DNA from: Tubulanus polymorphus
Taxonomy: Eukaryota > Nemertea > Palaeonemertea > Tubulaniformes > Tubulanidae
Assembly: GCF_964204645.1 (NCBI RefSeq)
Contig: NC_134029.1
Span: 12,822,850 to 12,886,849, forward strand
Direction: 5' to 3'
DNA length: 64,000 nt
Shown: in pieces, positions 1-60,400 of the stretch
How positions within the stretch are numbered: position 1 is the stretch's first letter
Layout: each line of letters begins with the position of its first letter
The notes under the pieces: model-generated
The model's database searches: none
The model's input: only the letters and a program-made list of their open reading frames with translations
What the model was told of the DNA's origin: nothing
Position numbers and translations under genes: made by a program

Positions 1-324
1 AAATCTTTTATGTAATAATTCATCTCGATTTTTATATCAGTTGGTTTTATTTCATCACCATTTCGTTTAATTAACCTGTGATCTTCAGTAACATCTACAA
101 ACCCTAATTTGATTCAAACTATAAATCTTCTTATTCGTTTTATGTCTAATAATATTCTTTAATTTTTTCCATCCATTTCTTGTCCAAACATCCATTAATC
201 CATTTATTTGTATTCTTTTTCACCATATGAAATATAACGTTCATTTTGACATTATTTTTGAAATTCTTCTGATTAATATTTGATTATTGTATTTTAATAA
301 TATTGGAGTATCAGCTGTTACAGA
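1..324 (-). other. Decayed intein (N-terminal part) at the motif C site of the DNA polymerase
   Basis: Reading leftwards, the polymerase is conserved up to the residues before the YxDTDS catalytic motif. After YFD it switches to SVTADTPILLKY, which fits intein block A: nucleophile Ser1, then V-T-A-D-T-P. About 70 codons on, at about 70-105, one frame reads VDVTEDHRLI, which fits block B (T-E-D-H). Between them RHKTNKKIY is still legible. Stops and frame changes, including a TGA at 241-243, show it no longer splices. The insertion point equals the pol-c site used by known PolB inteins of large DNA viruses. The endonuclease and C-terminal blocks would lie left of the window. Blocks A and B in the right order and spacing make chance unlikely. 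Confidence 0.72.
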
Positions 325-1890
325 ATCAAAATATAATAATTCACTATGTTTTTCCCCGAAAAGTTGTTGTAAAACATTATAATAAAAATCATACATTAAT
401 AATTTTGATATTTCTAAAACAGTTGAACCAACGAATATAGGTTTATTAAATTTCATTGACGTTCTTTTTAATTTACTGCTGTTAAATAATCTTCAAATCT
501 TTTATTTCCTAAGTGTCTAGGACTTGATTGTAAATGTCTCAATCGTTCAGAATTATTTACAAATTCTATATCATTTCTATTTCTAATATTTTCACATGTT
601 TTTCCATAAAAACGATTATTCATTAATTTAAAAAAATCTTTTTCAAAATCAGTTTTAGATATTGTTTTCTGTTGAGTATTGAAATCTATATATTTTTCTA
701 ACCACTTCGATTGATTAAATTCAATATATCTATGTACTTTCTTTAATTTCATTCCTTGTCTTAGATAAAATTTTAACATTCTATAATGAACAATATACTT
801 ATATTTATTATTTTGTGTTAATATTAATTTTTCTGTAAAAACATGGTCTTTCGGTTTTATTTTTTTCTGGTATTTACTTAGATAACTATCATCTACGGCT
901 AAATGTTCTGGGCAATAAGGTAAGTTTCTTGTTTTAAACTTTATATTTTCAGGATATTCTAAATCAACTACAAAGAAATAACCAATTGGAACATCATCTT
1001 CTAAACTCATAATTGCGCTTTCCCAATTAGTTTTATCATCATTTTCAACTTCTGTTAATGCCGCGTTATTATAAAATCATTATCAACTAAACTTTTTGCT
1101 AAATAATCTAATGAACTTGCTAGAAATCTATAAGAATCTAAAAATCTAATGCAACCAAATTGAAATGAAATATAATTTTCAGATGTTTTAGCTAATAGTT
1201 TAAAATCCTATTTTCTTACATTTAAATCATTTATAGCATTATATTCTTCTATTTATTGATTAATGGCGCCTAATTTTTCTGATAATTGTTTTATAAATAA
1301 GTGGGTATCATACCCTGATAAATTATGAAATAATATTGGTACGAAATTAACTTTTTTAGCTTGTAAATTACAATCTTCATGAGCAGCTCGGCGATATTTT
1401 GAATTTAAATGATCATGATCTCTAACTTTTTTATCAAATGAATAAAATCGTTGTTCACATAATTCTTTATGTTTTAGTAATGCATTTTCTGTCATAGATT
1501 TAGATAAACATTTTCTACAAAGATAAATCTTAAGAAATGTTTTGTAATATCATCAATCTATAACATTTTCATCATCATAATATTCTGTTAAATATAAAGC
1601 TTCTAATGTATAATCTTTAATATTTTTACCTTTTGTCTCTGGTAATAGCATTAATTCATTAATACATTTATTTTTAAATTATTAACTTTTTCTAATTTAG
1701 GAATCATTTTAATAGTTACTGGATATTGATCAATCTTATATAATGTTACATATTTCCGGTACTCTGTTATTCTATAAACATGTTCTTCTGTTGGATGTTA
1801 ACAACTAATAATTGACCATAGAAAACATTTATTATCTTCATTTTGAACATTTATTACTGCTTTTGTTGTAAATGGTAATTTAATACAAGA
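325..1890 (-). pseudogene. Protein-primed family B DNA polymerase (Polinton/adintovirus-like), decayed
   Basis: This is a fossil DNA polymerase of the protein-primed B family carried by Polinton/Maverick elements and related viruses. From N to C terminus (right to left) I read an N-terminal block with KAVINVQNEDNKCFLWSI (about 1790-1880), then YPVTIKMIPKLEK (about 1690-1740), an HNH-like zinc segment VRDHDHLNSKYRRAAH followed by FHNLSGYDTHLFI (1253-1495, exonuclease II region), then FGCIRFLDSYRFL (about 1090-1180), then a palm block with MNNRFYGKTCENIRNR (motif B, 468-1010), then KPIFVGSTVLEISKLLMYDF before motif C (about 400-456). The blocks sit in different frames with stops between them, so it is dead. 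The right border near 1890 marks truncation. No capsid, ATPase, integrase or protease gene of a Polinton is in the window. Confidence 0.85.
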
Positions 1891-3590
1891 GCCCCAAGGG
1901 GCACAATGGCCAGCCTGTCAGATTTGCTTTTTATAAATGATGTAATCTGTGGGTTATATTTATCAATATACACTCCCTGCTCAATATCATTTACATAGTA
2001 AAATCGTGTGTTAACACAGACAGCAGGAACGAATGTAATATAGAAATACTAAGTTATTGTATTGTTCAACGCCCCCTGGTGGCCATAAAAAAAACCAATG
2101 AGCTTGAAACTCACCTCGATCATAGAACATGTCATGAGCTACAACTTTCCAATTGATTATAGTAGCAAAATATGCTCAAGTATCAATTATGATGTGGAAA
2201 AACTTTTTTTCCACCTACGAATGAGTACTGATAACCCCAAGATGGCTGCCAAGTGCGTCATAATTGCCTGGTCAAAAATACCCTCTCGGATATAAAAGAT
2301 CCCTTTCCAAAGAATACCCATTACAAATTGCAATGAAACATGGCGCACCATTAGAAAGCTACAGTACTCAGAATTCAGGCCAAAATTGACATTTTTGGGA
2401 ACAAAAAAGGTCACAGTACGGCCATCTTGAGTCCGATCGACTCAATTTTTCTCATGCCGATGGGCCCTCGGGGGAGACAAATATATACGAATGATCAAGG
2501 TTATTGATAAAAGTGTCTTCAAAATTTCCCTCGAAAACTTCAAAAATGTGTAAAAAGTGCTGATTTTGGCGAACAACAATGGCTGCCAGTCGGCCATCTT
2601 GAATCTGACAGGGCCAGTTTTGGCCTGAAGATGTGTCTAGGGTAGATACACGTATAAAACAAATATCAAGACATTACCTTGAAGCGTCTTCAAAACTTTG
2701 GAACTCTCATGAACTATCTAGATGGTTATCTCTCGACCTCAATAGCTTCAAGACCCATCTCAAAACAACTTTGTTCCATGCAGCATACCATTAACTCTCG
2801 GAAAGCGAATTGTATTTAACATTTTTTGGCAGAATAAAATTTGATTGAATTTGCAATTCGGGCACATGGCTAATTAGCATATCAAGGTCATACACCCGAT
2901 TTGGTAAAACCTTTTTTTCGCGAACCTTGCGCAATTGTCAAGGATGAATTTTCTGTAGAGCAAATAAAAATTCCTCCCAAACACCAAATCAACTAAAGAC
3001 TTCATAGAAATCAATCTTGAAATACAATTTTAAATCTCAAAAAAAAACCCGGAAGTAAAACAGTACAGTAGACGATACCGCGGATTCACGTGAACACCTG
3101 ATTTCTGTAAACGAAATGTTGGTTGTGACAAAATTGTTCAGACGGTTTTAGGTGGTAATAAGTACGGAAACGTAACGACCATGGTCGACTTAACCGATGA
3201 AATCAGGCCTATGTGATATCCAAATTTTGACTTTTTTATTCTCCAGACCTCCCTGATATAGAAATAAAAAATTTTGGTGGTACGAAAGTGCAATCACAGC
3301 GCCGACGGGGACAGAGCCGTGTCAGAGATCGGCGGAGTGAAAATTGAGGTGGACGAACACGAAGAAGTAGGCTATTGCGCTACTTGAATCACGAAAACTC
3401 CTGGCGCGGCCCCGACGCTTTTCGTTGATTAAGTAATACAAATATCATGCAATGGGTTTTCACAATCTACCGCTGCCGTATTTACCGGATTTCTATATCA
3501 CTCCAAAATTCAAAGAAACCTCGAAATATCGAACCGGAACACTTCCAGTAGATATCCGCGGCTGCCCAACCGGGAAACTTATTTGTTTCA
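1891..3590. other. Intergenic, no gene recognised
   Basis: There is no supportable coding region on either strand. Short phrases such as 'aagatggctgcc' and 'cggccatcttg' recur here as in many other non-coding parts of the window, which suggests old dispersed repeats. No inverted termini were found. Confidence 0.6.
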
Positions 3591-8361: not shown

Positions 8362-10270
8362 TCAGAGTGTATAGGATAAATGTAGTAATAATAATTCATG
8401 CTGGTAATGTTTTGGTAAACGCGTAATAAATTCAAATAAACAATCCTTCGAGAAATTTTCGCTGTAAAGCTGAATGTCGATTCCGGACTTGGAAATATCG
8501 TCATAGGGAAGTTGTACAGAGTCCGGATGCGATTTCATAAAGAACACTGATCTTCCCAGAATGTAAATTCGCCTGAATCCTCGTTCGGTCAACTGCTGTA
8601 ATTCCTAAAATAAAGTATCAGTAATCAGTAACTGATAGTTAAAGAGGATTATGGCAGCGTCAAATAAAATGACGGCCCAAAATAACAGCACAACGAAGGT
8701 ATAAAACATCTGACTAGTATTAATGATAATAATTACCTTTAACTCTGTGAATGTTGCGTACAGATTTGACAGGTCCTTGTGATGAAAGCAACGCCTTCGA
8801 TATCTTTTGCGGAAATGATGACACTCGAGGCGAGTGTATCGAATCTACAGCTTTGTGCTGTTCCACTGCCTGTAAATCAAAATGACAAATCTATTTTAGT
8901 TTAGTTAATATACATGTATTGTCGTAAATGTTTTGCGTGGGCTATGAACTTTTTGTTCATTGTTACATATAGCCTAAACTAATAGGGAAAAAATGGATTT
9001 TGTTTTCAGCCCCACGGTCTACATTGACAATAATACGTGATACATTGTACGAGATGAATCTGATTTTGGGAAATACATACCTCGAGAAATATAGCTTTCT
9101 GGTGCTGCATTGTTCTAAACACCGTTTTCGCAGCTTGCATTTGTTGTATTGGAATGATTTCTGAAATGGTTAATGCATTGGATCCCCTTATGGTGTGTAT
9201 CATCGCCTCAACAAATATATGCAGTAAAGCAGTGAGGCGATAAATGTGTGACGCATCCTTTGACGATGCCATGTGTATATCGCCGTTCTGTTCTTGGTTT
9301 TCTTCTGAAATTTGAAAATAAACGGAATTGGTGATATGAATGCATAGCCTTACTACAAAAGACCTTCAATTAAACCATTTAGCAACTTACCGATATTTTC
9401 GTGGTATCTGCGTTGAAGGTAATCGATGTTCTTTCCTGATTTCGTTGAACAAATTTTCACTTTCGTCCGATAATGTGTAAGTCACTGCATTGTTTAGGTG
9501 TGCATCATACACGGACTGAAGAATGCTTTTGAACCCGTTTTTCAAGGGGGAGTTCATCACTTCGCGATGCGCTCTAACGTTTTCTTCGGGTTGATGCAAT
9601 TCAGGTTTGCATACAGAATATAAATCTGTCCACAAAACCGTCCCCACCACACAATTGTACTAGTTCCACTAGAAGTGGTTCAGCCTGAACCATGACGATC
9701 ATCGACATTGATGTCTTACTGAATCCTCTTAGTCCGTTCGATAAAGTTTTAAGTATCTCCTCGACTTCCCCACATTTTGCAAAGCAACGCACGTTCAGTT
9801 TCGCCCTTTTTTTTGTTTCACGTTGATAGCTTTGAGGAGTCTACCTCCTTCTTCCGATGTGATTAGTCCGTAACCAGAATTTAAAGGCTGGTGTTTCTGC
9901 ACCCCAGCTACAGAATAAGTCTCCAAAATGAAGTTATTTCCTCCATTTGTATCGCTATAGTGATCCGAAAACAGTTCGATAATCCGCTTGAAACAATTCG
10001 ATTTGCCACATCCAGGATCGCCAACTATCATCATGTACCAGTTCAAAGGATCGATGAACCCAGCAGCTGCTGTACTGACAGTACTGACTGACTGTACTGA
10101 CGAGTGTTTGGTCCAGCAACCGATGCAATACACGATCCAATATCCCATTGGAATTTAATCGTATATGCACTCTGATAGAGTTTGAAGATACTACTTTTAG
10201 AATAACGTTTACTAGCCATGGCATGGAGAGTAAGTTTACTGTGAACTTTGAGCAAATTATGACCATTTTA
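8362..10270 (-). pseudogene. DUF3987-type P-loop ATPase, multi-exon and frameshifted
   Basis: The upstream part has NWYMMIVGDPGCGKSNCFK (Walker A, about 9985-10045), then LITSEEGGRLLKAINVKQ, KGETERALLCKMW, GFSKTSMSMIV and GGDGFVDRF, an order I know from eukaryotic DUF3987 proteins of unknown role. Introns are legible: donor GTAAGT at 9388, acceptor TTTCAG at 9305, exon about 9080-9304 ending at GTATGT, exon 8737-8869, and exon 8362-8604 after TTTTAG. At least three frame changes occur, one at an 8-A run near 9808-9820, one near 9735, one near 9625. A small tandem duplication ('actgactgact' near 10085) lies upstream of Walker A. Function is unknown. The family also includes primase/helicase-linked proteins in phages. 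It is a host paralogue or element cargo, now dead. Confidence 0.6.
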
Positions 10271-11530: not shown

Positions 11531-12098
11531 GTCTTGTGCGATACAGATTTTGTTTAGTTGCTTTGCAAGGAATCCAAACTGGATTTAAGTGCACATTTAT
11601 TTGTTTACATTGTTTGCATGTGTAGCTCAGATTGGGTTTGCATTGAGATTGTGGTTGACTTACCTGTGGATCCGAGCGTGTGAGTTCTGTTCTACAGGGG
11701 TTGTGATAGAGAACGGTCTGTTAATTGGTTTGTGTAGCTGAGCTGAGCGGAGAACATTTTATTTGCGGTGCTTGATGCGATCATTTCTTTTTGCGTTGTT
11801 TTAGTTAAATGTAAATTTACTGCATGTTGTGATTGCTTTATTTTCTTTTTGTGTTTGCCTATTCTTAATTTGTCCATTAAAGCACACAATTAATTGTACT
11901 ACGAAATACCTTGTGAGATGGGTTAAGCTGTTAAGGTAGTTGAGAGTGGGACATATTATTGGTTTGTACAATTAACTGAGTGCGTATTAATTAGTTTTAA
12001 ACAAGTGTTAGAGTGCATTTGTTTAACCCTCTGTTTCTGTTCTATTGAGACTTGGTGAAACTAAATATCTGTGTTTTTGTGCTAATATATAGGAGAGA

Positions 12099-13472
12099 AT
12101 GCCCTCCTTGTGGGAACAAGCGGTTTTTGTTGGGGGTATTCAAGGGTTAACTAATCCGGTTGGATTTTGTCTGGAATACTTTCAGCCTTGTGGGGAAATT
12201 AGAACCTCTAGCCAGAACTCGGATGGGGTTTTTCTTATCTTTGATTCTCCAGATGCATGTTCTCAAGCGAGTTTAGCTGATAACAGGAGGATTCAGGCAG
12301 ATGGTAAGTCCATAACCCTACGGGTGCAGAATATTGATTCGTCCCAAGAGCGATTCTTGCGTCAAATATATCAGGCGGAAGAGGATCTGGACCAAATGGT
12401 AAGATCATTCTCAAACCTACCACCAGGGACTCAGAGTAAACTGGTTGACAAGTTGACGGCTTCGGTGATGAAACCCAAAAAAGAAACAAGCCTCGGTGAA
12501 TCGTATTCCGGTCCGACATTGAGGCCACCAGCACTCTCACAACCCCAATTTGAACCGAGGGTGAATGTGTCGGTGCAAGCACCAAGGGTCGGAATGTTTA
12601 GTGGAACGGAGAGCAAAGGAGAGATATCCTACGCCCAATGGCGCCAGGAAGTGAAGGCACTTGTTCGTGATGAAGCACTCGGTGATGCCACCCGGATGAG
12701 GATAATTCGTGCATCATTAAGGGGAACTGCATTACGGGTGTTAACCAATCTATATGATGAGGAAAATGAAGTTACGGCAGCGGATGTTCTTGATCAGATG
12801 GAACTCAAATACAGGGAGGTGCAAACGGCGGAGGAGTTGATGATAAGATTTCACTCAGCGAGTCAAGGAGACAAGGAAACGATAGCGGATTGGTCCACAA
12901 CAATCGAGGAGATAGCTGCGCAAGTGAAAGCTGCGGGACATGGACCTACCTATATAAATGACGAGACACTAAAGGTACAGTTTTGGCCAGGGTTACAAAA
13001 TATGCAAGTTAAGATGTCGACGAGAACATATAAAGAGCCAGGTTATTTGTTTCGTCAACTAGTCAGGCAGGCTCGGAAGGTGGAGAGTGAAATGGGTAGC
13101 GAGATAGGCCGCACTTCTATCAACTCTTACCGGAGAAAGAAGCCGTTCATTCAGCAAGTTCAGGGGGTTGCCGTGGAAAAGACGGAATCGAACGAACTAG
13201 CTGAACAATTAAGGAAATTGACTGAGCACTTAAAGCGAATTGAACGTGAGCTGGAAGCCGTCAAGGAAGGGCGGCTGGAACAACGGAATTGGCGCGGGAG
13301 GCGATGGCAGACTGGCCCAAGACCGCCTAATCCGATTGTGCCCATGGAGGAAAGTGTTGGCAATGCGGTGATAAAGGTCATATGCGACGTAGCTGTCCGT
13401 CATTGCCGGGAAACGAGGAACCGCTCGGATCAGGAGGCAGGAGACGGGCGGAAAAGGAGGACAGCGCCTTAA
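12099..13472 (+). CDS. Gag of gypsy element 1, PNMA-like
   Basis: This is the structural Gag of a Ty3/gypsy retrotransposon. An N-terminal domain (residues about 7-85, with AVFVGGIQGL and GVFLIFDSP) resembles the RRM-like N terminus of vertebrate PNMA proteins. The capsid region (about 175-345, with YAQWRQEVKALVRDEALGD, MRIIRASLRGTALRVL, then a long helical part) is also PNMA/Arc-like. A charged helix follows (about 365-405). The CCHC knuckle is intact but in the -1 frame at 13355-13396 (C-x2-C-x4-H-x4-C), so an indel between about 13260 and 13345 moves it out of this frame, and the last 40 residues here are spurious. The protease then lies in yet another frame (-1 again). The start is ATG after a 1.1-kb leader. 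Confidence 0.85.
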   Translation: MPSLWEQAVFVGGIQGLTNPVGFCLEYFQPCGEIRTSSQNSDGVFLIFDSPDACSQASLADNRRIQADGKSITLRVQNIDSSQERFLRQIYQAEEDLDQMVRSFSNLPPGTQSKLVDKLTASVMKPKKETSLGESYSGPTLRPPALSQPQFEPRVNVSVQAPRVGMFSGTESKGEISYAQWRQEVKALVRDEALGDATRMRIIRASLRGTALRVLTNLYDEENEVTAADVLDQMELKYREVQTAEELMIRFHSASQGDKETIADWSTTIEEIAAQVKAAGHGPTYINDETLKVQFWPGLQNMQVKMSTRTYKEPGYLFRQLVRQARKVESEMGSEIGRTSINSYRRKKPFIQQVQGVAVEKTESNELAEQLRKLTEHLKRIERELEAVKEGRLEQRNWRGRRWQTGPRPPNPIVPMEESVGNAVIKVICDVAVRHCRETRNRSDQEAGDGRKRRTAP

Positions 13473-13489
13473 CCTATCAGAGTTAATTG

Positions 13490-14997
13490 GAGGGCCTAAC
13501 GAGATTAGCGCTCAAATAAATGGTCGTGAATGTAGAGTCCTGATCGACACAGGTTCGATGGTCTCAACCATCTCGGAAGACTTTCTACAAACTCTCCAAG
13601 ATGGTGAGGTGTATCCTTTGTCCGACATCGAACCCAAGTTTCAGGTGCACATGGTAAGTTGAAAGGTGTTACCGTTTAAGGGTAAATTTACTTGGGTAAA
13701 TTTAAAATGTGAAGGTGATGATTTGGATATTTTGGCTCTAGTTGTACCGTCAACAATTTATCACCGAGAAGTACCCGTTTTGGTTGGAACCAATGTCTTA
13801 CGTCGGCTCAAAACTCCATCGTTTGTTACCCAGCTAGCAATGGAAGCCCCTCTCGTCCGAACGACGCAAACTTTATGCGTCCACGCTAATTCGGAGGTTA
13901 CCGTGCATGGGCAAGTCCGAACTGCTTGTCGTGGTGGACTGATGATGGTAGATGGAAGCGTAGTTAACGTTCCTGGCAGTTTAAGTGTCATACCGACTGT
14001 TACCGAAGTACCGTCAGTCAAATGTTGCAGGATTTCGGTGCGACTTAGGAACAGTAGCGAGCGGGATATCACTATTCCTCATAGAGCAGTGATTTGTGGA
14101 GTGGTTCCGGTGACTGAAGTGGAGACCTCGGACTCTGAAGAGGATGTGAAAGTCGAAGTGGAGTCTGGAAAACATTCGTGGGTGTCTGACGAAGAGTTTA
14201 TAGCGGGTGTCAACTTGGCGGGAGCAAAAACAGAGGAAGAAAAGGAAATGCTCCGGGAATTGCTTGTAAAATGGAAGCATGTTTTCGCCGCAAATGACCT
14301 GGACTTGGGTACGGCGAGACTGGCCGAGCACACCATCCATCTTACAGATGAAGAACCAGTAAACCTTCGGTACCGTCGTGTTCCTCCTGGGATGGTGGAG
14401 GAAGTACGCCAGCACCTACGAATGATGTTGGATGCCGGAATAATCCGTTCATCCAGCAGTCCCTATTCCAGTCCGGTCGTGTTAGTACGGAAGAAGAACG
14501 GGGAATTAAGGTTCTGCGTTGACTACCGGGATTTGAATCGAAAAACCGTTCCCGACCGTTATAGTCTGCCCAGGATTGACGAGGTTTTGAATAATTTGGC
14601 CGAATGTGATCGTTTTAGTGTGATCGATCTTAAGTCTGGATACTGGCAGTTGAAGATGGCGGTTTCTTCGAATTCAACAAGATGCCTTTTGGCTTAACAG
14701 GGGCCCCGGCATCTTTTCAGCGACTGATGGAAAGGACCCTCGGAGATTTAAACTTGAAAACCTGTTTAGTATACATTGATGATGTAATTGTATTTTCCAA
14801 AGGTGCTAAACAGCATATGGAACGTCTGGAGGAAGTATTCGAGCGTCTAGAGAAGGCCGGGCTGAAAGCTAAACTGAGTAAGTGTGTTTTTTTACAGGAC
14901 GAGGTATCTTATCTTGGGCACCGCATATCCAAGCGAGGCATTGAGGCCTACCCCGCCAAGATAGCAACCGTCCGGGATTGGAAGCCACCTGAGACCG
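13490..14997 (+). pseudogene. Protease and reverse transcriptase of gypsy element 1, broken
   Basis: The aspartic protease active site VLIDTGS is at 13540-13560, followed by an in-frame TGA at 13660-13662 where the family normally has a sense codon. The frame then runs on through VLVGTNVLRRL and a linker to the reverse transcriptase: FCVDYRDLNRKT, then FSVIDLKSGYWQLKMA at 14613-14660. There a deletion of about 16 codons joins directly to FFEFNKMPFGLTGAPASF in another frame. The catalytic YIDD is intact at 14772-14783. The RT ends near AYPAKIATVRDWKPPETV, where a second deletion removes the connection and most of RNase H. It is related to the Pol of animal gypsy elements. Not functional. Confidence 0.9.
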
Positions 14998-15420
14998 TAT
15001 GACTATCTGTATGGGCAGCGTTGCGTAGTTGAAACAGACAACAACCCACTCACCTACGTCTTGAGAACCGCAAAGTTAGACACAGTAGGGCATCGTTGGT
15101 TACAGGCGTTATCGGTGTATGATTTGGAGCAAAATTATACGCCTGGGAAATCCATGGGAGATGCAGATGCTTTGAGTAGGAAGATAAACCGCGAGGTAAT
15201 TGTAGCCATGGCTTCATCTACGCATACAGCCACAGTTCCTTTGAACGTCACCGAAGGAAGTGTTACGGACGTTTTCAGTGAGCTCCCTAAACTCAGGCTA
15301 GCTGAACTACAGGACCAGGATCCGGTGATCACGAGACTCAAGCGACTCATCGTCGGAAAAAACCATTCCGTCCAATGGATCGCGCCGAACAAAGATACCG
15401 GAAATATTTTCCGTCGCTCA
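14998..15420 (+). pseudogene. RNase H C-terminal remnant of gypsy element 1
   Basis: After the deletion the sequence resumes at YDYLYGQRCVVETDNNPLTY and ends with YTPGKSMGDADALSRK, the end of the RNase H fold with its DALSR signature. The first two catalytic acidic segments are missing. The frame changes again near 15400, where the integrase frame begins. Confidence 0.85.
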
Positions 15421-16925
15421 TAATTGAGGAAGGTTTGCTTGTGAGAAAGAAAACTGTGGATGGTTTCGGAGTTACTCAAGTGCTGGTACCGGTGGAGGAG
15501 AGCGGGAATATTCTTCATTGGACCCACGATGCACTTGGACACGTTGCTCGAGATAAGACATGGAAGGCGGTAAGTTCACGTTTTCTTTGGCCAGGAATGT
15601 TTACGGATGTGGAAAGATATCTGGGGAGTTGTAGAAGATGTGTTGTGCAGAAGGCCAGAGATCCCCGTGCACCTCTCGAGTCAATCCTCTCAAGTGAACC
15701 TCTTGAGTTACTATGTATGGACTACCTGAAAATCGACCCATCTCAAGGGTATGAAAATCTCCTCATTCTCACTGATCATTTCTCGAAATACTCCGTTGTA
15801 ATACCTACGAAGAATCAGTTAGCTCAGACAGCAGCGCGGGCGATATACGACAACTTCATTGTGCGGTATGGGATTCCAAAAACCCTCCATAGCGATCAGG
15901 GACGGAATTTTGAAGGAAAAGTGGTGAGCGAACTATGTGAAATTCTTGGAATCGTGAAAAGTCGTACGACGCCATATCATCCGCAAGGGAATGGTTGTGT
16001 GGAACGTATGAATGGAGTACTTTTGTCACGATTGAGGCTATTAGATCCTACTCACAGAGCAAAATGGAAGAACCATCTCAATACAGTAGTCTGGCAGTAT
16101 AACTGCACTCCTCATTCCACGACTCAATATTCTCCTTATACTTTGATTTTCGGTAGGGAACCTGTCCTGCCGGTTGATCACGTGTACGGTTTGGATGTTT
16201 TGACCTGTCGAACAAAATTTGGGGAAGATCTTCAAAGGGAAATTCAAGAGACATGGCAGACTGCTTGTGGACACATAGAAAAGCATGGGGAAAGAACCGG
16301 GTGGTATTACGACAAGAAGGTCACCGGAAGACCAGTCTCCGTTGGAGATTTAGTGCTAGTTCGGAATATGGGACCTCAGGCGATGGGTAAGCTGGCTGAC
16401 AAATGGCGCGACGAAGAGTATTGCGTGGAGGCCCAACCTAACGAAGATTTCCCGGTGTACATTGTGAAAAGTCTGTTGACCGGAAAGCGCAGGACGCTTC
16501 ATCGAAACCTATTGCATCCGCTGGCTTATCCATTACGGGATGAAGCTCAACAGGAACCAACTGTAAGGCGACAGGAAAAAGAAAAAACAAACCGTTTTAT
16601 TGGAGACGTCGACGATACATTAAAAGATGTGGAGGTAGAGGTATCTGTTCCCATTCACACTTCAGAGAAGATTTCTGTCGGTGATGGGGAAGTTGAAGTT
16701 TTACTGACGGCATCCGTGGCAACGGAACAAAATCGCACTTCAGTCACCCTCGGATCTGAGGAGCACGATGAAGGGGAGATCGTCCCGGAATCCGATGGCG
16801 AGGTAAGTATAGACGTCGAGGACAATCGGGAAGTTGAAATGGACGCAGAGGAATCAGAATCTAAACCGCCTACTCCTCCTCGCCGTTCTGGAAGAGAGCG
16901 CCGGATGCCCGCTACGGTTTACTAG
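15375..16925 (+). CDS. Integrase of gypsy element 1
   Basis: This 516-residue frame has the whole integrase. An HHCC zinc-binding part (HWTHDALGHVARDK...CRRC, residues about 53-95) is followed by the DDE core: D in LLCMDYLKID, D in TLHSDQGRNF, E in GNGCVERMNG, with the last two spaced as in D,D35E enzymes. A GPY/F-like module follows (VSVGDLVLVRNMG...LLHPL, about 310-380), then an acidic tail ending RRSGRERRMPATVY. It would cut and join element DNA in the nucleus. The upstream protease-RT-RNase H part is broken, so it cannot be made as a normal polyprotein. The listed ATG is inside the old pol frame and is not a true start. Confidence 0.85.
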   Translation: MDRAEQRYRKYFPSLIIEEGLLVRKKTVDGFGVTQVLVPVEESGNILHWTHDALGHVARDKTWKAVSSRFLWPGMFTDVERYLGSCRRCVVQKARDPRAPLESILSSEPLELLCMDYLKIDPSQGYENLLILTDHFSKYSVVIPTKNQLAQTAARAIYDNFIVRYGIPKTLHSDQGRNFEGKVVSELCEILGIVKSRTTPYHPQGNGCVERMNGVLLSRLRLLDPTHRAKWKNHLNTVVWQYNCTPHSTTQYSPYTLIFGREPVLPVDHVYGLDVLTCRTKFGEDLQREIQETWQTACGHIEKHGERTGWYYDKKVTGRPVSVGDLVLVRNMGPQAMGKLADKWRDEEYCVEAQPNEDFPVYIVKSLLTGKRRTLHRNLLHPLAYPLRDEAQQEPTVRRQEKEKTNRFIGDVDDTLKDVEVEVSVPIHTSEKISVGDGEVEVLLTASVATEQNRTSVTLGSEEHDEGEIVPESDGEVSIDVEDNREVEMDAEESESKPPTPPRRSGRERRMPATVY

Positions 16926-37503: not shown

Positions 37504-38814
37504 ATGGCGCGTTCTTCAACTTCGTCGGGGATTTTCAAAGTTGGAGACAAATTTTCGTCTTTTGACGATGTTTTGGCTGCTATAAAGTTGTTCGAAGATG
37601 AGCAACTTATGTCGTATTGGCGACGTCACACTCGTTTACTGGATGGCGCACCAAAGAGTACACCAAAGACAAATGAGAACGCTATAAAATACTATCAAGT
37701 ATATTATCACTGTTTGAAAGGGGGAAAGAAACACAAGACATGCAGCAAGGGCTTGAGACCAAACCAGAAGTATGTATATATCACTAAGGTCTATCACTAA
37801 ATTGATTTTGTGGTTACTACTTAGAATCTCATGTACAGTGGGATCGGACTTAGAACCAGGATTGGACTTTGAGTAGGCCTACTGAAAATTCTTCATTATT
37901 CCTTCTCTCATTATTTTCCATTTTTACGTTCTAATTATATCCACATAATAAACACATAATGCTAAAAAAAAGTTGGCAAAATCAATATCTAAGATGTAGA
38001 TTGCCATTAGAAGTTTAGATGGCAATATTTATGTCTTGATATTTAGGGATTATTATTGGAATGCGACTGTCTTGTTGTGCAAAGATATTTTGACAGCTGA
38101 GCAACCACTAGCGCCATCTATCGAACATAAATTGAAGCTTTTGTCAGCTTATAGAGCCACCAATATATAAGGACCAATATATAATGATATATAATAGAAC
38201 ATTAAGCTTTTCGGCGTTGGTGACTTAATATAATGAAGGAATAATGGATATGAATAATGAAAAAAAACCTCATCAACTTTTGACATTTGAGGTGACAGTA
38301 AACTGATACCTTAATTCTATAGGCTTTATAGCTGCAGTAAGACCATCACAACATTAATATGTTCGCAACATTATTTCTAGGTATCGTTCTTTCTAAAACA
38401 GCTTTAAACTCTCGTTCTCTGTTTTTTATGGGCCTTTTTAATCATGTTTTCCTTTCCCTGTATTTACAGGACATTCCGTCAAGATTGTGAATCATGTGTT
38501 CACTTCCGCGCTTCAAAGGATGGACAACATCTTGTGGTGACATATCTGAATACTACACATAACCATGAATGCACAGAGGGGGCATATGCTTTTATCCCTA
38601 AGTGTCGGAAATTAGATGAAAAAGAGACAATCGAAGTTAACAATATTCTAAAGACCAGACCGAACAAAAAAATCTTACAAGATCACATCAGGAGCATTTC
38701 TGGCAAGAAGTTAACTTTGCGTGATATTCAAAACCTACAGAAAAGATTAAAGGGGACGCCAGGTGACTTAGAAGAGATTTTAAACAGTCTCATTTCTGAA
38801 AGAGGTAATTATGA
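37504..38814 (+). CDS. MULE protein, exons 1-2: FAR1/GCM-type zinc DNA-binding domain
   Basis: Exon 1 is 37504-37769 (ATG in AAAATGGCGCG, donor GTATGT) and exon 2 is 38470-38814 (acceptor TTTACAG, donor GTAATT). Joined in phase they encode FKVGDKFSSFDDVLAAIKLF, a YYHCLKGG...C segment, RQDCESCVHFRASKDG, then LVVTYLNTTHNHE. The C...C...HNH pattern is the WRKY/GCM1-type finger found in FAR1 and FLYWCH-like transposases and in ZSWIM3-like animal proteins. It should bind the element ends. A linker rich in K/E follows (KLDEKETIEVNNILKTRPNK). The first ATG lies 125 bp inside the left terminus, so the TIR probably holds the promoter. No frameshift is seen in these exons. Confidence 0.82.
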
Positions 38815-39273
38815 TTCATTTCAGATTCATTTCAGTGATTTATATAGCGGCTTTGTTTACCTATCATAATTTTTTCCATTCTATCGGACTGTAAACACCA
38901 TTTTTTCACTTTGAATCTGGCTCATCTTTTTTGGAAAGGATTTTAGTTAGTTATACTGTGAAATCTCCTCTTTCGTTGGCTCCGTCAAGAAAGGGGGATC
39001 GGAATAATCGTTGCCACAGAACCTCTAAAATAACCTAAGATCACGCCGAGATTTACCTAACGTCTTGCTTGCTTTATTCAACACGCCAAAGAGAACACAA
39101 GAATCACTACACAATATGGTGTCACTAAAACGCAGATTTGGACTCGGTAAAAGCCGGATACCGGACTTTACCGGTCCATCACAATACTACGGACCCTATG
39201 AACCAAAGGCCTATAGGCCTACAATATACAGATAGGCGATATTGATAACTAACTTGCCAACTTTTATTTCCAG

Positions 39274-40664
39274 ACGCTACGGTAGAAGTCGTCAGTGATG
39301 ATACCGATATGCTTCGCGCGATATATTATCAGGATAATATCATGAAAAAGAAATTCAAAAAGTATCCAGAACTATTGATAGCAGATGCTACTTACAAGCT
39401 TAATAATCTACGAATGCCAGTTTTTCTACAAATAGTGGTTGACGGAAATGGAGAAAGTGAGATAGTGTCAGTTTTTTTGATCGTCAGCGAAGATCAGGGA
39501 ACGTTAGAGATGTTGCTTGAGATATTTAAGAAACATAACCCTGCCTGGACAAGAACAAAAACTGTTCTTACCGATAAGGACATGACAGAGCGTGCCGTGT
39601 TTAAAAATCTGATGCCTGATGTTAAGTTACAGCTGTGTTTGTTTCATGTCCTCAAATCAATGCGAAGAGAAATACATTGTGAGAAAATGGGCATCCGCAT
39701 CGGAGAGAAAAATGCTTGTCTAGAAATAATTCAAAAAATTGCGTATTCAAAAAATGAAGAAGAATATACGAGCAACGTAGACAAACTCAATAATACTCGA
39801 ATACAGCCCGTTATCGACTATTACAGACATTCTTGGCATGATATCAGATCTGAATGGGTGTTAGGTCTGAAGCAATCCTGTCATTATGGCAATAATACAT
39901 CTAACAGAATTGAAAGCATAAACCAAAAACTGAAGCAGGTTGTGGCGCGATTTTCGAATTTAGAGAATTTCTTTCATGATCTCAAGCTTGTAATTGCTTG
40001 TCTGAGACAGGAACGCGACAGTCGTATTGCAAATGTAATCACCAAGCGTTTGGTTCATTCACATCCCGCCGGTTCACCAGCAGCCATGTACATGGACCTT
40101 CTGACACCTGTTGCGTATCAGCTTGTGATTGATCAAATCAGCTTGGCATCAAAAGTCAGATTCCAAGATGTTGCAGATAATCCCGAATTTGTCGAAATGC
40201 GCACATCACATGGAGTTGCAATGGTATCCTGTGAAACATGTACATGCAAGTATGTGGAATTCAATTCATTACCATGTCGACATATTTTCGCACTTCGCCG
40301 GAAGAGAAATCATCATCTATATACCGATACCAGTGTTGCCGAGCGTTGGAAGATAAGATGTTATATAGATCACAGTCTACAGCAGTATAATTGTACGACG
40401 GAAAATGTCAATGATGCTGAGATACCTATTACACAACTTGGTCAACAACGTCGTAAGACGGCTTTGTCCCAACCACAGAAATATAAAGCTGCATTTGGTG
40501 TTGCTCAACGTCTCGCTACACTCGCAAGTGAAGGTTCGATGACCAAATATAAACAACGCATAAAGGTGCTACGTGATCTTGTTGCACTGTGGGAACAAGA
40601 TAGTCAAGCTGTAGCCATTGAAATTGATCGTGAAGAGGTAATTAATAAGCCAGTTAATAAGTGA
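39274..40664 (+). CDS. MULE transposase exon 3: DDE catalytic domain and SWIM zinc finger
   Basis: The acceptor TTATTTCCAG at 39273 joins in phase 1 with exon 2. The domain has the first Asp in LLIADATYKLNN, the second in TVLTDKDMTERAVF, CLFHVLKSMRREI, and a helical region with SNRIESINQKLKQVVAR that likely supplies the Glu. A SWIM finger VSCETCTCKYVEFNSLPCRH (C-x-C-xn-C-x-H) follows at about 40225-40285, then a basic tail. The chain either stops at TGA 40662-40664 or splices at a GAG|GTAATT donor (40638) to the Ser-rich exon, with matching phase 0. This enzyme would cut and rejoin the element. The coding frame is intact. Confidence 0.9.
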
Positions 40665-48218: not shown

Positions 48219-48416
48219 TATTTATATTCTTCGATGATGCGACGTTCCTCCTATTCAGCTTGTGCCCAGCTTCGGATGAGAAACACTCGTTATTGGGCCT
48301 GGTGTTCAATAGTCATGAACTAGGCCTATCCTGAAACTTGACTCGAAAACGTATATGCACATATAGATGATTTCTTTCCATTATTTTAAGTATACATCAA
48401 CGTCTTAGGTTTGAGA

Positions 48417-49451
48417 ATGGAAACGAGATCTATAGTCAGAAATAAAGATATCTGTGGCTCAAATGGTGACCATCGGAGATCCCGCAGTTTAAATCCATCA
48501 GAGAATCGTGTGATGATGGAACCCGTCGTCATGCGCAGAGAAGCTGCTGGTGATATGCTGCATGATCTACCGTCTGAGGACGAACGCGAGAGATTTCAAC
48601 ATGTTCCAGTTTCCAGTGACGTGCGACCGTATCAACGAGATTCGTTTTTTAGTGTCTGCAAGATGAAGCCCGAATTGTACTCTGGCGAAAATCCCTGGCA
48701 AGACTACAGTCAAGTCTTCGAAACGGTGGCACGAATTAATGGTTGGAACGATGAAACGAAAGCAGACTACTTGTTTGCATCACTTCGTGGTCCTGCTCGA
48801 CAGTTGGCGTGTGCAGTCCCGGCATGTGATCGTTCCAATTATCACGAACTGAATAGAATACTCGACAGTAGATTCGGTTATGGAAATCAGGCAGAGTTAT
48901 TCTTGGCTGAAATTAGAAATAGAAAACGAAGACGAAATGAGACGTTACGTGAGTTAGCCCAAGCTCTTACCACGTTATCAGCGCGAGCGTATCCAGACCT
49001 TGATTCTCGTCAGCGTGATCGAATGATCAGAACCCATTTTATCGACGCATTAGATGACCGCGATTCGCGAATGCAGCTGTACAGAAGCAGGTGCGAGAAT
49101 CTAAATGAGTTGGTTCGATTAGCAGTTGAGCTGGAAGGCTTTACCAAGCTTGAAGACGACCGTGAACGAGGAAGTCGTGGCCATGTTAACTCGGTTAAGC
49201 TCGACGATCACAGTGAACTTCGAGAGTTGAAACATCAAGTGTCAGAACTCAGCAGCATGGTGAAGACCGTAATGATGAACGGAAATGGTCCCCGAGATCA
49301 GTTTAGGCGCGGAGAACAGAAGAAAGACGTCAAATGTTATAACTGCGGCGAGATGGGACACATTGCTCGATTCTGTAGAGTTTCCAATTCAAATCGTCAG
49401 GGAAACGGACAACGGCTGGTCCGAGGAGAGCCAAATCAGCCCAGACAGTAG
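48417..49451 (+). CDS. Gag of gypsy element 2
   Basis: The start is the ATG at 48417 (an in-frame TTG lies 6 bases earlier). The 344-residue protein has a basic N terminus, a capsid domain (about 80-235, with PELYSGENPWQDYSQVFETV, YLFASLRGPARQLACAV and NETLRELAQALTTLSARAYP), a coiled-coil-like stretch (ELRELKHQVSELSSMVKTV), and a CCHC knuckle CYNCGEMGHIARFC near residue 310. It packages the element RNA in cytoplasmic particles. It ends in a short overlap with pol, which is in the -1 frame. Confidence 0.9.
   Translation: METRSIVRNKDICGSNGDHRRSRSLNPSENRVMMEPVVMRREAAGDMLHDLPSEDERERFQHVPVSSDVRPYQRDSFFSVCKMKPELYSGENPWQDYSQVFETVARINGWNDETKADYLFASLRGPARQLACAVPACDRSNYHELNRILDSRFGYGNQAELFLAEIRNRKRRRNETLRELAQALTTLSARAYPDLDSRQRDRMIRTHFIDALDDRDSRMQLYRSRCENLNELVRLAVELEGFTKLEDDRERGSRGHVNSVKLDDHSELRELKHQVSELSSMVKTVMMNGNGPRDQFRRGEQKKDVKCYNCGEMGHIARFCRVSNSNRQGNGQRLVRGEPNQPRQ
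49400..49441 (+). promoter_or_regulatory. Candidate -1 ribosomal frameshift signal (GGGAAAC plus stem)
   Basis: G GGA AAC at 49400-49406 fits X XXY YYZ in the gag frame. A 7-base spacer follows, then GGCTG (49414-49418) pairing with CAGCC (49437-49441). The -1 frame is open from here into protease. GGAC (49407) could pair with GTCC in the loop, giving an alternative or pseudoknotted form. Confidence 0.6.
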
Positions 49452-50869
49452 AGCTCTCATCAAAACCACTTCACCCTGAAATCGTTAAACCAATAGTCAA
49501 ATTAAGTGTTAGGCCTACAGATAAACGATTCGGCAAAGCAGACTCGAACATAATCGTCGAGGGTAGTTTTAAAGGCAGACAGGTCGATTGTTTAATTGAC
49601 ACTGGAGCCTGTATTTCTGTTTTAAGTCACGATGTTTTCAACATGCTCGACGCCATTACTCGCGATTCACTTTCCACGTGCGATTTCAATTTATGCGCAG
49701 CTAATGGAACTTCACTTAAAGTCTTTGGTCAAGTTTGTGCCAATATTAATATTTTCAACAAACCGACACCCTGGGAATTTGTAGTAGCTGAGATTTCAAA
49801 TCAAGTCGTTATAGGGATGGATTTCCTGGAGTACTACGATTGCAAGATTTATGCAGCAAGTCATAGCATCGTATGCGGAGATAGTCAAATTGATTATAAG
49901 AAACACTGCCATCAAGACGATAATGACATCTACGTCAGGAGTCTAGAGAAAACAATCATTCCACCCCGATCTGAGAAAATAGTTCAAGGAGTTGTACCGG
50001 ACGGAACCATTCCCTGCAAGTGGTCAGTTATCGAACGTGCAAGAAATCAGTCGAAGTACAAATATGTGACCGCCAGAACTTTAATAGATACCGGCAAAGA
50101 TTATTTACCTGTTAGGCTGATGAATCCAACTAATGATCCGCTTATTGTGAATCCAGGTTCTACCATAGGCGTCTTGAGATCAGTTACCAAAGTCACCCCC
50201 GATGGCTGCATAAATCATGTAGGACGCGAACAGGCGCCAAGCTCCGAAACCGTTCCTGACCACCTGAGAGAATTAATAGAGCGTAGCAGTGCGAATATCA
50301 ATGCTTCTGAAGCTTCCTGTTTAAAGAAGTTAATCGTAGAATATTCCGATATATTTGTGACATCAAATTCAGATCTCGTCGTAGCTCAAGGTAGTCAACA
50401 CGAAATTGACACAGGTGATGCCCGACCAGTACGACAGAGAGCTCGACGACTAGCACCAGCCAGACAAGCTTTAGCAGATGTATTAGTCAAAGACATGCTT
50501 CAGCGAGAAGTGATTGAACCCTCTACTTCGCCATGGGCAAGCCCTATCGTTTTGGTAAGCAAGAAAGATGGCAGTACTAGATTTTGCGTCGACTATAGAA
50601 GATTAAATGAACTTACCGTCAATGATGCTTATCCGTTGCCCAGAATCGATGATTCTATCCGTTCGTTATCTGGTGCGAAGTATTTCTGTACCATGGACGT
50701 AGCTTCCGGTTATTGGCAGGTGGAACTATCTGAAAAAGCCCGTGAGAAATCAGCATTCGTAGTGAGGAATGGCCTCTATCAATTTAACAAAATGCCGGTT
50801 GGTCTGTGTAACGCTGGAGCTACGTTTGAGAGATTGATGGAGCAAGTTTTGGGTGGTTTGCAAAAATGA
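49400..50869 (+). pseudogene. Protease and first half of reverse transcriptase, gypsy element 2
   Basis: Read in the -1 frame from gag. Protease active site CLIDTGACISVL is at about 49590-49625, with VVIGMDFLEYYD. RT begins near LVKDMLQREVIEPSTSPW and has TRFCVDYRRLNELT, FCTMDVASGYWQVEL and FNKMPVGLCNAGATF. The frame breaks at a run of five A near 50862-50866, where one base is missing, giving a TGA at 50867-50869 right before the catalytic YLDD. Everything upstream of this lesion is intact. Confidence 0.9.
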
Positions 50870-53242
50870 AATCTGTTTGATTTATCTAGACGATATCGTA
50901 GTTTATGGAAAGGATTTTGATTCAACTTTACATAATCTACGACAAGTATTTTCAAGATTGCGACATGCTGGCTTGAAGCTAAAGCCGAAAAAGTCTGACT
51001 TTTTCAAACCTTCAGTATTATTTTTGGGGCATATTGTATCAGAGTCTGGAGTTTCGTGTGACCCAAGCAAGGTGGAGTCCGTAGCCAACTGGCCAGAGCC
51101 GAAGTGCCAGAGCCGAAGTGCCAGACCGATGTCAGGTCATTCCTTGGATTAGCTTCCTACTACAGACATTTCTGCGAAAATTTCGCTACTATCGCAAAAC
51201 CTCTACATAGACTTACCGAGAAGGGACGTCTATTCGTTTGGAGTAATGAATGTCAAACTTCATTCTCTACGTTGAAGAGTATGCTTTCCTCAGCTCCGGT
51301 CTTAGCTTATTTCACCCCGGGTCTGATTATTCTTGACACAGATGCTTCTGGAGTCGGCTTAGGAGGAGTTTTATCTCAAAGTTATGACGGTGTAGAGAGA
51401 GTTGTCGCCTATGGTAGCCGTACTCTATCTAAACGAGAAAGGAATTATTGTGTGACCAGAAGAGAATTATTAGCAGTAGTCACCTTTATAAAGCATTTTC
51501 GACATTACCTTTTAGGATCGAAATTTCTACTTAGAACAGACCACGGATCTTTGAGATGGCTTATGTCGTTTAAAGATCCAGAAGGTCAAGTCGCAAGTTG
51601 GCTCACGGTTTTGGCGGAATACGATTTCGATATACAGCATCGACCAGGCAGACAGCACTTAAACGCCGACGCTTTATCTCGAAGAGAATGTGCACACTGT
51701 CTTTCTGCTTCGAAGAGAGGAGCTTCAGATATATCTCCGTGCAACCTAGCGTCTGATAGCTATTTTCACGATGTCGAAACCTCTCCTGTTCTGGCTAGCG
51801 CAGGTTCAGTCATTATTTCTAGTACCAATTTTGACGAATCTTTTTCTTGTAAGAGTTTGGCTGAAGAACAAGAAAAAGATGTTGAATTTTCTTGGATAGT
51901 AGCGGCGTTGATGAAGGGTGAGAAACCATCGTGGCAGGATGTGTCACATCGCGACGATACAAGTAAATTTTATTGGTCTAGGTGGCTGAATTTGGAAGTT
52001 TCCAACGGAGTTTTATTTATCATAAAGGAGAGAGATGGATTGCCTACATCTAAGTTAATTCTCTTACCTGCGATTTTCAGACGAGATGTGTTTCTCAGTC
52101 TTCATTCCGCCCGCACTGCAGCTCATTTTGGTTTCCGCAAAACTCTCACTGCCATTCATACTCGATATTTTTGGTATGGTATTCGGTCAGACGTTAAGTC
52201 ATGGTGTAGTGTTTGTCAGACGTGTGGTTCCAGGAAAACGTCTCCAAAGAAGATGAGAGCTCCTTTAAACGACTACAGGGTAGGACTACCCTTGGAATGC
52301 GTCGCTCTAGATATACTCGGTCCACTTCCAATCACTGACAGGGGCAACGCTGTGATTTTAGTCATAAGCGACTACTTCACTCGCTGGGTAGAAGCTTATC
52401 CCTTGCCAAATCAAGAAGCTGAGACAGTAGCTCGCACTCTGGTCACAGAGTTTATCTGTCGATTTGGCATACCTCGGATGTTGCACAGTGATCAGGGCGC
52501 TAATTTTCAGTCTAGACTAATGTCAGAATTATGTCAGATTCTCGAGATGAAGAAAACTAGAACCACAGCTTACCACCCTTGTTCTGATGGTTTGGTCGAA
52601 AGATATAATCGAACACTATTAGATGGTCTGGCGATGACAGTGAACAAGAACCAGTCTAACTGGGAAGAACAGATTCCTTTTATCACCATGGCTTACCGTT
52701 CGTCCGTCCAAGACAGTACCGGCTTCAGCCCTAATTATTTAATGTTTGGCAGAGAAGTGAATCTGCCTATCGATATAATCTTTGGCGGCCCTATCACAAA
52801 CGTATCTGTACCTATCAAAACTTATAGCCTGGAGCTACAGGACAGGTTAAGATCAGCGTTTCATCAAACTCGCAAACACCTGGCTCTCAGAGCAAAACGC
52901 AACAAGAGAAACTACGACATGAAGGCCCATGGTCAGAGGTACAGAGTTGGCGATCCGGTCTGGGTACACAAACCTGCAGTCAAGGCAGGCCGATCGTCAA
53001 AATTGTCGTGTCATTGGCATGGGCCGAATGTCATCAAGAGTTTGTTTAATGACGTCGTGTACGAAATCTCTGAACCTGGTGCTCACAGATCGATTAAGGT
53101 CCATTATGATTGGCTAAAGCCATATGTTTCTGAGCCGACTGTCGCTGATGATGTCGAAACGCAGACCATGCAACAGCCGGTCATAACATCCTCAGGCCGA
53201 CAGACGAGATGTCCAGATCGCTTCGGCGAATGGCTTTTATAA
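50853..53242 (+). pseudogene. RT end, RNase H and integrase, gypsy element 2
   Basis: RT continues with ICLIYLDDIVVYGKDF (catalytic YLDD). A 14-bp tandem duplication ('gccagagccgaagt' twice, about 51094-51121) shifts the frame. After that a 712-residue frame is open: LGLASYYRHF, RNase H with LDTDASGVGLGGVL, RTDHGSLRWL and NADALSRR, then integrase HHCC (HSARTAAHFGF...CSVCQTC), DDE core with D in VALDILGPL, D in LHSDQGANF and E in GLVERYNRTL, and a GPY/F-like end (YRVGDPVWVHKP...VHYDWLKPYV). Only two small lesions in this pol separate this copy from coding integrity. Confidence 0.9.
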
Positions 53243-57412: not shown

Positions 57413-60400
57413 TCATCGCTGATATCCATATGATATTCTGGAAAGCTTACTGTAGCTACTACTGAGTTTCGAAGAAGTAGATTTTAAACGAGTAGCGTAC
57501 TGACTTTGTGTGCCAGGAGGTGTTTCATACCAAGGCCGCCATGCAGGGGGAGCGAACCGCCCAAATAAAACATAGTATTCTAAGACTCCCTGGTCGTTGA
57601 AACGTGTTGATACGGCTCGAGCGGCAGTAGGTATAATGTTTTTGAGCTCGGTTTCGGTGGGAGGCCTTTCATTTTCCAAGATGACATGATATATACCCCA
57701 TACATGTTCAAGACTTTCTCTGTAATCACTTACTTCAAACCAATCTCGTTTTGATGCCCGGTACCATGGACTGTCATGGTAATATTTGACGAATAGCACA
57801 TTATTTTGAAATTTGGTAGCAACAACCGTTTTTCCAGTAGGGCATGGACATAATGCTCGACGATTTCCCGTCCGAATAGCCTCTTCGATAGCGACATTAC
57901 TTGAATCTGAACTACTCTTAACGCTATCCTGATTCGTATGATCTTGGTGAGTTTTCGATCGAGCTGAACAATATACACTATTTACATTCTCATTATTTGA
58001 TGAGTCTTCATTAGACATCTGATTATCAAATTCTTGGAAGCGATCATTAGTAACATATACACCCTGTATTACGGTTCCATTTAATTTTCTTCTAGGTTTT
58101 TCACGTATCTCTACTTCACTATCCTGACACCTATCTCTATTTGTGATTATAATATTTGCTACGTCATTCTCGTTTTCATTTCGATCGTTTTGATGTCCCT
58201 GATTATTATCAGAATTGTCTGTAATGCGATCAAAAAACTTACTTTTGCAAGGTTTCTTACGTTTTTTGCCTGATGCCGCATAGTTTTCGTGAAAGTGTCG
58301 AATTAGTTTATTTGGGATCCATTTTCCTAATTCCCAAGAATTTCCACGATTTAAATCTGACTTCCATTTTACGCGATATTTACATAAACCACTTTCTAGT
58401 TTGTACTGTAGAATTTTCTGAATATCTGATTCATTGAAAGTCTCAGTAACTACCGGTCTATCTTTGTTATCGTCAGCCGAAATTTGAGTGTCAGTTGGAG
58501 TATCAGCTAAATTGCTAGGTTTATATTTTAAGCGCCCATGAATCTCGTCGAATAATTCAGGGTTTTCCTCAGCTGTTGAACCATCCCATGCGACCTCTTC
58601 ATAATTTGGACGCGATGAGGGATCTTTGTATAACTTAAGACGGTTCCCATTGACATGCGATGGGAGTAAAGCGTTATCAGAGATTCTTCGTAATTGATAA
58701 GCCCCTTTACTTGCTATTGACTGAATGAAATAGGGACCTACGTATTTTTTACACAGTTTTGGTGATTTTCCTTTCTTAACTTTCATGACTTTTAGCCAAA
58801 CGCGATCAGTAATCTGAAACTGAGGTTTTGATGCCTTTTTATCGAACTGAGTTTTATACTTATTTTGAGCTCTTTTAATATTCTCGTTAGCGATATTTCG
58901 TGATATGACCAGCTGCCTTAATATATGTGATAAGTATGCCTTATGATCAGTAGCTAACGAATGCCGTGGAATTAAAGCCGTGTCTATTGGTAGACGCATT
59001 TCTTGACCAAATAACATGTGGTAAGGGCTAAAACCTGAACCTTCAGTTGAGGGAACATGCCTATAACTCATCATTACACTTGGCATTAGTGTATCCCAAT
59101 TAGTCTGGTCCTGGTTACAATACGACCTAAGTGACTGCCAAATGTACTGGTTAGTTCTCTCGCAAACTGAGTTGGATTGAGGATGGTACGGAGCGGTGAA
59201 ATGTTGTTTCACGTGAAACAATTCACAGAGAGCTCCAACTAACTTAGACATAAATGTTTTACCGCGATCAGAGACTAAAGAATGAGGCGCACCATACCGC
59301 GAAAATATCTCTTTAAAGAGAACCTTTGCTACCTCTGTTGTTTCCTGAGTATTGAGAGGAAAAGCCTCGGGCCATTTACTCCAGCTATCTACCACGAGTA
59401 GAATATGCTTATTACCATTAGGTGTCTCCGGAAGATTGCAAAGGAAGTCAATGTGCCATCTGGAGAATAAGCCTTCAATTGGTAATGGTTGTAAGGGTGT
59501 TGGATGACTATGATAATTCCGTTTGACCTGTTGGCAATTCTCACAAGTAGAAACATATTTCCCGCAATCTTCATACATGGAATCCCAATGATATTTATTA
59601 CGTAAAACACCATAAAGACGATCTCGACCCTGGTGGCAACCTCCCACTAATGAATCATGGTAAGCTTTCAATATTTCCGACCGTAATGACCTAGGAACTT
59701 CAAGAACTGGGATGACCTTCTCGGCTTTAGGAATACCAGTAACTCTAGGCGTATACAAATAATATAACGTGCCATCGATAATACCATATTGGTCGGCCCT
59801 CCAACTGAGCTTTCGAAACAGTTTTTCATCGTCGACAGCATATGATGGATCTAACTTATGTTCCAACATGTGACAAACTTCAGGGCAATTCCGCTGTAAG
59901 TGAGTTATATTAGCAGGTTTAATCAGTTCAATCTCCTTATAAGTATCAGGAGTTAACTCAGCCCCCACGGGGCTACTATAATCAAACACGACTTCATAAG
60001 ACTGAGATCCATTTGTCATTGCTGTGAAAACAGTTTCTTGTGAAGGATCATCAGGTCTAGGAGGAGGAGGTTTATCATAATCTCGTCTACTTAAACCGTC
60101 GCAATTGCCATTTTTCTTACCCGGTCGGTGTTCAACAGAAAAATTATATGCTTGAAGAGCCAATTCCCAACGTCCTATACGTTTATTTAGTCGGTTTTCA
60201 TGAATATACGTTAAACTTTTGTTATCAGTATACACAGTGAATTCATTTCCAATCAGGTAGGGATGAAAATTCTGAATTCCTTCAATCAAAGCTAATCCTT
60301 CCTTATCACTAATATGCCATTTCTTTTCGTTTACACGTAACGCGCGACCACCATATCCGATAACATGTTCTGAATTATTCTCTTTCTGAGACAAAACGTA

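Follow-up and report, generated by a model that had tools for sequence, protein, structure and literature searches.

The 64,000-nucleotide stretch of DNA analysed here, which we refer to as the window, corresponds to positions 12,822,850 to 12,886,849 of contig NC_134029.1 in the nemertean Tubulanus polymorphus (C5:12822850-12886849 in a genome of 267.8 Mb and 77 contigs). Its left edge contains, on the minus strand, a gene for a family-B DNA polymerase that is interrupted in motif C by a decayed pol-c-type intein. The N-terminal third of the intein covers positions 1 to 324, and the N-extein, a PF03175-type polymerase up to motif C, covers positions 325 to 1076 in 2 frames, with a frameshift near positions 470 to 490. 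The motif C sequence LLYFD (339-325), with which the N-extein ends, was directly followed by the block A sequence SVTADTP (324-304), such that residue S1 of the intein is located at position 324. The VWTRNGW...IRHKTNKKIY stretch, VWTRNGWKKLKNIIRHKTNKKIY (189-121), is located between blocks A and B, and block B itself, VDVTEDHRLI (98-69), is contained in GFVDVTEDHRLIKRNGDEIKPTD, in a different frame from the block A part. An earlier note, made from the sequence alone, had described an intein interrupting a polymerase at the pol-c site, with blocks A and B in the same direction and about 70 codons apart. The intein and its site, YFD/TD, were both recovered; the blocks do have the same direction, with frameshifts and in-frame stops between them, and the measured spacing was 75 codons.

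A tblastn search of the window with the intein of a sister copy gave a single significant match, at positions 324 to 1 (58% over 115 residues, E value 2e-26), while the next-best match elsewhere in the window had an E value of 1.4. The same place was matched by the intein of the metagenomic protein P0002 (E value 5e-24) and by that of P0012, a PF00136-type PolB (E value 4e-11). The nucleotide identity to sister copies was 92% for positions 1 to 1059, and the window copy was about 8% to 10% different from its sisters. The PF03175 match in an open sister polymerase had an E value of 7.2e-19 and a score of 68.5 bits versus a cut-off of 25.8, and the broken pieces in the window gave weak Pfam matches only.

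In the leftward genomic extension of the window copy (L009, where 9550 is subtracted to obtain the window position), the intein continued to position 8824 and was followed by the C-extein. The extension contained, on the minus strand, a first LAGLIDADG motif, FFMGDGSAG (9453-9424), an altered second motif, GFYAADCSKG (about 9116-9086), and blocks F/G, YVYDLSIDDGTFNSGFPLIAVD, which ended at position 8824. Directly thereafter came TDAYILKIKT...FSNYPKDHELFSNENKKQLGKFKDE, the polymerase sequence downstream of motif C, with the Thr+1 residue at positions 8823-8821. Thus, the extension proposed in the earlier note gave the endonuclease motifs and the remaining polymerase that it had looked for, and the direct run into polymerase sequence that would speak against an intein was not seen in the window copy, although 3 sister copies do have this exactly empty form.

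The N-terminal part of the polymerase, from position 325 to about 1890, carried frameshifts and a deletion and was truncated. Further N-extein pieces at positions 1077 to 1890 on the minus strand (weak PF03175 match, E value 0.1; frames read by eye) have an internal deletion and lack the 5' part, and the right edge was placed where the recognizable frame stops. By eye, this segment contained an HNH/endonuclease-VII-like stretch, VRDHDHLNSKYR, and a zinc-finger-like piece. The intein of the window copy ended with Val-Asp followed by Thr, rather than with Asn. Because of the frameshifts, the stops, the altered C-terminal Asn and the altered second LAGLIDADG motif, the window copy can likely no longer splice or home. 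The G+C content of the A+T-rich block was about 16% to 27% in 300-base steps and 24% for window positions 1 to 2000, and since it shifted from about 0.21 to 0.35 at about 5.7 kb into L009, the A+T-rich fragment is about 5.7 kb long. The window copy is truncated, and its edges had no 12-base inverted match in common.

The sister elements that the earlier note had suggested looking for were abundant in the same genome. The LAGLIDADG piece gave at least 150 scored matches with 76% to 100% identity (404 first-look candidates), and the C-extein and N-extein pieces gave at least 150 scored matches each (1426 and 1346 candidates). Two pairs of LAGLIDADG matches were located close together, but these were offset by at least 5 filled pairs of N- and C-exteins outside the LAGLIDADG list, and the number of at least 150 copies therefore stands. 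Among the 150 C-extein matches listed, 11 were located in uninterrupted frames of 1686 to 1690 amino acids. The element copies crowded the contig middles on C1-C10 and C12, the C-extein matches per contig tenth being 0, 4, 6, 23, 34, 39, 18, 13, 2, and 2 (n=141).

The A+T-rich block is unlike its surroundings, as would be expected if virus or symbiont sequence had been misassembled into the animal genome. However, the listed C-extein matches were found on every one of C1-C12 and on 5 further contigs, with 114 of the 141 placed matches in the central part of the contig (0.3 to 0.7 of its length), sequence of ordinary G+C content flanks the window copy on both sides, and the copies decay independently of each other. 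We consider a foreign contig to be exceedingly improbable. With an approximate Antennapedia homeodomain query, 10 of 38 matches (61% to 95% identity) were located on one strand within C6:5318228-5634747, an arrangement established as that of the Hox cluster of bilaterians. A search of the assembly did not find COX1.

To describe the anatomy of the sister copies, we used a sample of 80 loci (L009, L012-L050, and L054-L093), from which L011, a repeat of the window copy, was left out. In 34 of the loci, the reading frame was open across the intein and 30 codons on either side; the word fossil in the earlier note is thus appropriate for the window copy but not for the family as a whole. The size of the intein was 355 amino acids in 32 of the open loci, and 350 and 351 amino acids in the other 2. 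The T and H of block B (TxxH), both catalytic aspartates of the LAGLIDADG motifs, the final Asn and the Thr+1 residue were present in all of the 32 open copies of equal length, 31 of which had S at position 1, and the third residue after the intein junction was A in 21 and S in 11. Six more copies with in-frame stops but without a frameshift have kept the same key residues. In both the window copy and the open sisters, the insertion separated YxD from TD in motif C of PolB, and the intein was predicted to have a Hint fold with an inserted LAGLIDADG endonuclease. The mean pairwise nucleotide difference between the 32 open copies was 6.7%, the smallest 0.7%. The intein is under purifying selection, with a ratio of nonsynonymous to synonymous substitution rates (dN/dS) in the open copies of 0.209 overall; the value was lower in the splicing part (0.165) than in the endonuclease part (0.249). 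The ratio of nonsynonymous to synonymous differences (pN/pS) in the N-extein was 0.099 (13 of 20 long loci).

Copies without the intein were also identified. The 150 best-scoring N-extein matches and 150 best-scoring C-extein matches formed 90 pairs, of which 80 had a gap of 1040 to 1090 bases, 7 a gap of 775 to 1009 bases and 3 no insert; with lists of best-scoring matches, 3 of 90 is not a genome-wide rate. The insert-free pairs were located on C2, C9, and C10, with the scarless motifs YFDTDS, YFDTDA, and YFDIDA, and a fourth candidate, at C8:2923798, was suggested from coordinates alone. With the 30-codon flanks alone, the intein looked younger than its surroundings in the 32 copies (pS 0.17 vs. 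0.45 and 0.27), but a sliding window over 13 of 20 long loci gave values that varied in patches over the entire gene, without a dip at the intein, and the claim of a homing sweep was therefore dropped. The synonymous diversity of the polymerase gene in L031-L050 (13 loci) was arranged in blocks, from 0 to 0.35, a pattern suggestive of recombination or gene conversion among the copies.

A search with the intein protein identified 309 proteins, the top match being P0002 with 63% identity, an inteinated PolB of 1693 amino acids on a 12,969-base Joint Genome Institute (JGI) contig. Junctions were found by pattern (S or C at position 1) in 69 of 121 proteins, all of which had S. A tree of 97 inteins, rooted at the midpoint, placed the animal copies in one clade (support 1.0) with the inteins of P0002, P0003, P0005, P0007, P0010, and P0011, which reside in polymerases related to the animal one, and with that of P0006; the remaining inteins were mostly from PF00136-type PolBs. 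The inteins of P0012-P0014 were 40% to 42% identical to the animal intein, and their exteins had no BLASTP similarity to the animal polymerase. P0006 contained a 47% identical intein in another PF03175 protein with exteins that could not be aligned by BLASTP, a further sign, from sequence comparison, that the intein may have moved between polymerase classes.

The polymerases themselves gave a different picture. The closest full-length outside polymerases, P0243-P0245 (69% to 70% identity), had an uninterrupted motif C, YFDTDS, and the animal family grouped with these in the N-extein tree (support 1.0), not with P0002, in which the N-extein identity was 54%. Among the nearest 120 listed N-extein relatives, motif C was, by pattern, empty in 59, filled in 4 (P0002, P0003, P0261, and P0298) and without a call in 57. 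The intein tree thus departs from the polymerase tree, which implies lateral gain or repeated loss. The source was likely an intein in a giant-virus-type (PF00136) PolB, reached directly or through other PF03175-type polymerases, as suggested by the PF00136-type hosts and by the known pol-c intein of Mimivirus (PMC549080). Searches of viral_contigs found no relatives for either the polymerase N-extein or the 462-amino-acid protein described below, and the intein matched 3 loci in segments of 29% to 44% identity.

Taken together, we are confident that the left edge of the window is the N-terminal third, now decayed, of an intein that carries LAGLIDADG motifs and is related to other pol-c inteins. 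It occupies the pol-c site (YFD/TD) in the family-B polymerase of an element that is present in many copies in this bilaterian genome and is likely virus- or transposon-like. The intein interrupts the active site of the polymerase between YFD and TD. In the open copies it would excise itself after translation by an attack of Ser1, followed by cyclization of Asn and ligation to Thr+1, whereby the active site would be restored. The endonuclease may make double-strand cuts in empty polymerase genes, the repair of which would copy the intein into them.

Several observations weigh against this interpretation. The window copy itself is broken, one of the 32 open copies has P instead of S1, and the score for PF14890 (Intein_splicing) was 27.1 bits versus a curated cut-off of 35.8. 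The C-terminal His-Asn expected in the earlier note was absent, the open sisters having Lys-Asn (22 of 32) or Val-Asn (10 of 32), and not the usual His. The penultimate residue in the 69 family proteins, P0001 included, was K in 35, H in 19, S in 10, and another residue in 5; because V occurred in only 1 of the 69, the predicted splicing of the V copies is less sure. The synonymous diversity of the intein, 0.148, was no lower than the values for the exteins, 0.114 and 0.116 (13 loci, out of 20 long ones, after a motif and length filter), and no fixed flank differences were found between the 3 empty and the 32 filled copies. The lack of a dip in synonymous diversity and of a fixed flank haplotype in the filled copies speaks against recent homing. 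That the insertion is a homing endonuclease or a Hint domain of bacterial-intein-like or Hedgehog-like type, rather than a splicing intein, appears very unlikely to us.

The same diversity and flank patterns are as expected for a passive passenger that has kept splicing, has lost homing and is passed on with the polymerase; the empty copies would then be cases of precise loss or members of an old sub-lineage without the intein. Also consistent with this are the similar identities of intein and N-extein in P0010 (42% and 40%), P0011 (41% and 42%), and P0007 (45% and 47%). However, the purifying selection on the endonuclease part and the conservation of both catalytic aspartates speak against a loss of homing, as does the patchy distribution, in which the closest full-length outside polymerases are empty and the closest intein resides in a more distant polymerase. 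We lean somewhat against a mere passenger, while taking it seriously. The broader interpretation, that the genome hosts a flourishing population of inteins that are complete, splice and home, and go back to a giant-virus-type PolB intein, and that these parasitize the polymerase of a multi-copy, itself parasitic mobile element and have left filled, eroded, and empty sites in one animal genome, we regard as tentative and just short of evenly balanced.

The carrier is likely a multi-copy virus- or transposon-like element with a protein-primed, PF03175-type polymerase. The name Polinton, used in the earlier note, could not be established. Among the 8 best-scoring PF03175 loci, L001-L007 carried an uninterrupted Y[ST]DTDS motif in a different polymerase, presumably of the classical Polinton type, and L008 had no such motif. 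Because that polymerase differs, the inteinated element is not just a Polinton of the classical kind. The roughly 5 kb downstream of the polymerase in one sister (with a 0.45-kb gap) contained a convergent open reading frame for a zinc-finger-like protein of 432 amino acids, and then frames of 253, 113, and 462 amino acids. Neither an RVE integrase, an ATPase, a protease nor a double jelly-roll capsid protein was recognized among these 4 frames, on one side of one sister. The 462-amino-acid protein, QNQLNFAVYCATTGCGISW... (L095:295-1599 and C9:6311142-6311570), had at least 150 scored matches in the genome and 194 database relatives, of which 120 were listed, none with a Pfam domain noted. A capsid function is not claimed for this protein, the AlphaFold2 model of which was mostly helical, with a predicted local distance difference test score (pLDDT) of 76.5 and no match with an E value up to 0.001 in BFVD or PDB.

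The window is also rich in other mobile elements. Long Gypsy-like retrotransposon regions with gag, protease, reverse transcriptase, and integrase were recognized by eye at positions 12093-16925, 48390-53242, and 57413-62397, and 2 frames resembling Mutator-like element (MULE) transposases with a SWIM-like zinc finger at positions 38408-40664. A frame at positions 9795-10154 on the minus strand contained a Walker-A-like GDPGCGKS motif, again by eye, and perhaps encodes a helicase-like protein.

A copy number this high is, to our knowledge, unusual for an intein. What is new here is that a pol-c intein resides in a polymerase of the PF03175 type, that the genome is that of an animal and that the copy number is high; no description of inteins in an animal genome was found among titles in the open-licence literature. 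In 2 reviews (PMC5784728, PMC8529194), metazoan genomes are described as being without inteins, a premise from which the use of intein inhibitors against microbes is advocated; the genome examined here contains at least 150, some of them in complete frames. If the broader interpretation is true, animals are not intein-free. The filled, eroded, and empty copies side by side would make the homing cycle of gain, erosion, and loss testable within one germline, and the relatives would show an intein passing between polymerase subfamilies with exteins that no longer align by BLASTP.

The nearest precedent comes from nematode Polintons, in which homing-endonuclease domains have been reported in the protein-primed polymerases (pPolBs) of animal elements, as here (Jeong 2023, as cited in PMC11071308). 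The citing paper suggests that endonuclease insertions in Polinton polymerases "result from intein invasions", and this precedent could reduce the novelty of our finding. The PolB intein of Mimivirus (pol-c allele; Ogata et al. 2005, PMC549080) has the same insertion point, there YGD/TDS, and resembles the animal intein in its Asn-type C-terminus, its homing endonuclease domain and the T and H of a block-B-like motif. It differs in its host, which is the PolB of a giant virus that infects amoebae, whereas the animal intein resides in at least 150 copies in a PF03175 polymerase. The intein of P0002 shares the same site and 63% identity over its full length with the animal intein, although the N-exteins are just 54% identical. 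The sequence identity to PI-PkoII (2cw7) and TliVMA (7qsu), 2 endonuclease-containing inteins with archaeal hosts, was only 14% to 21%.
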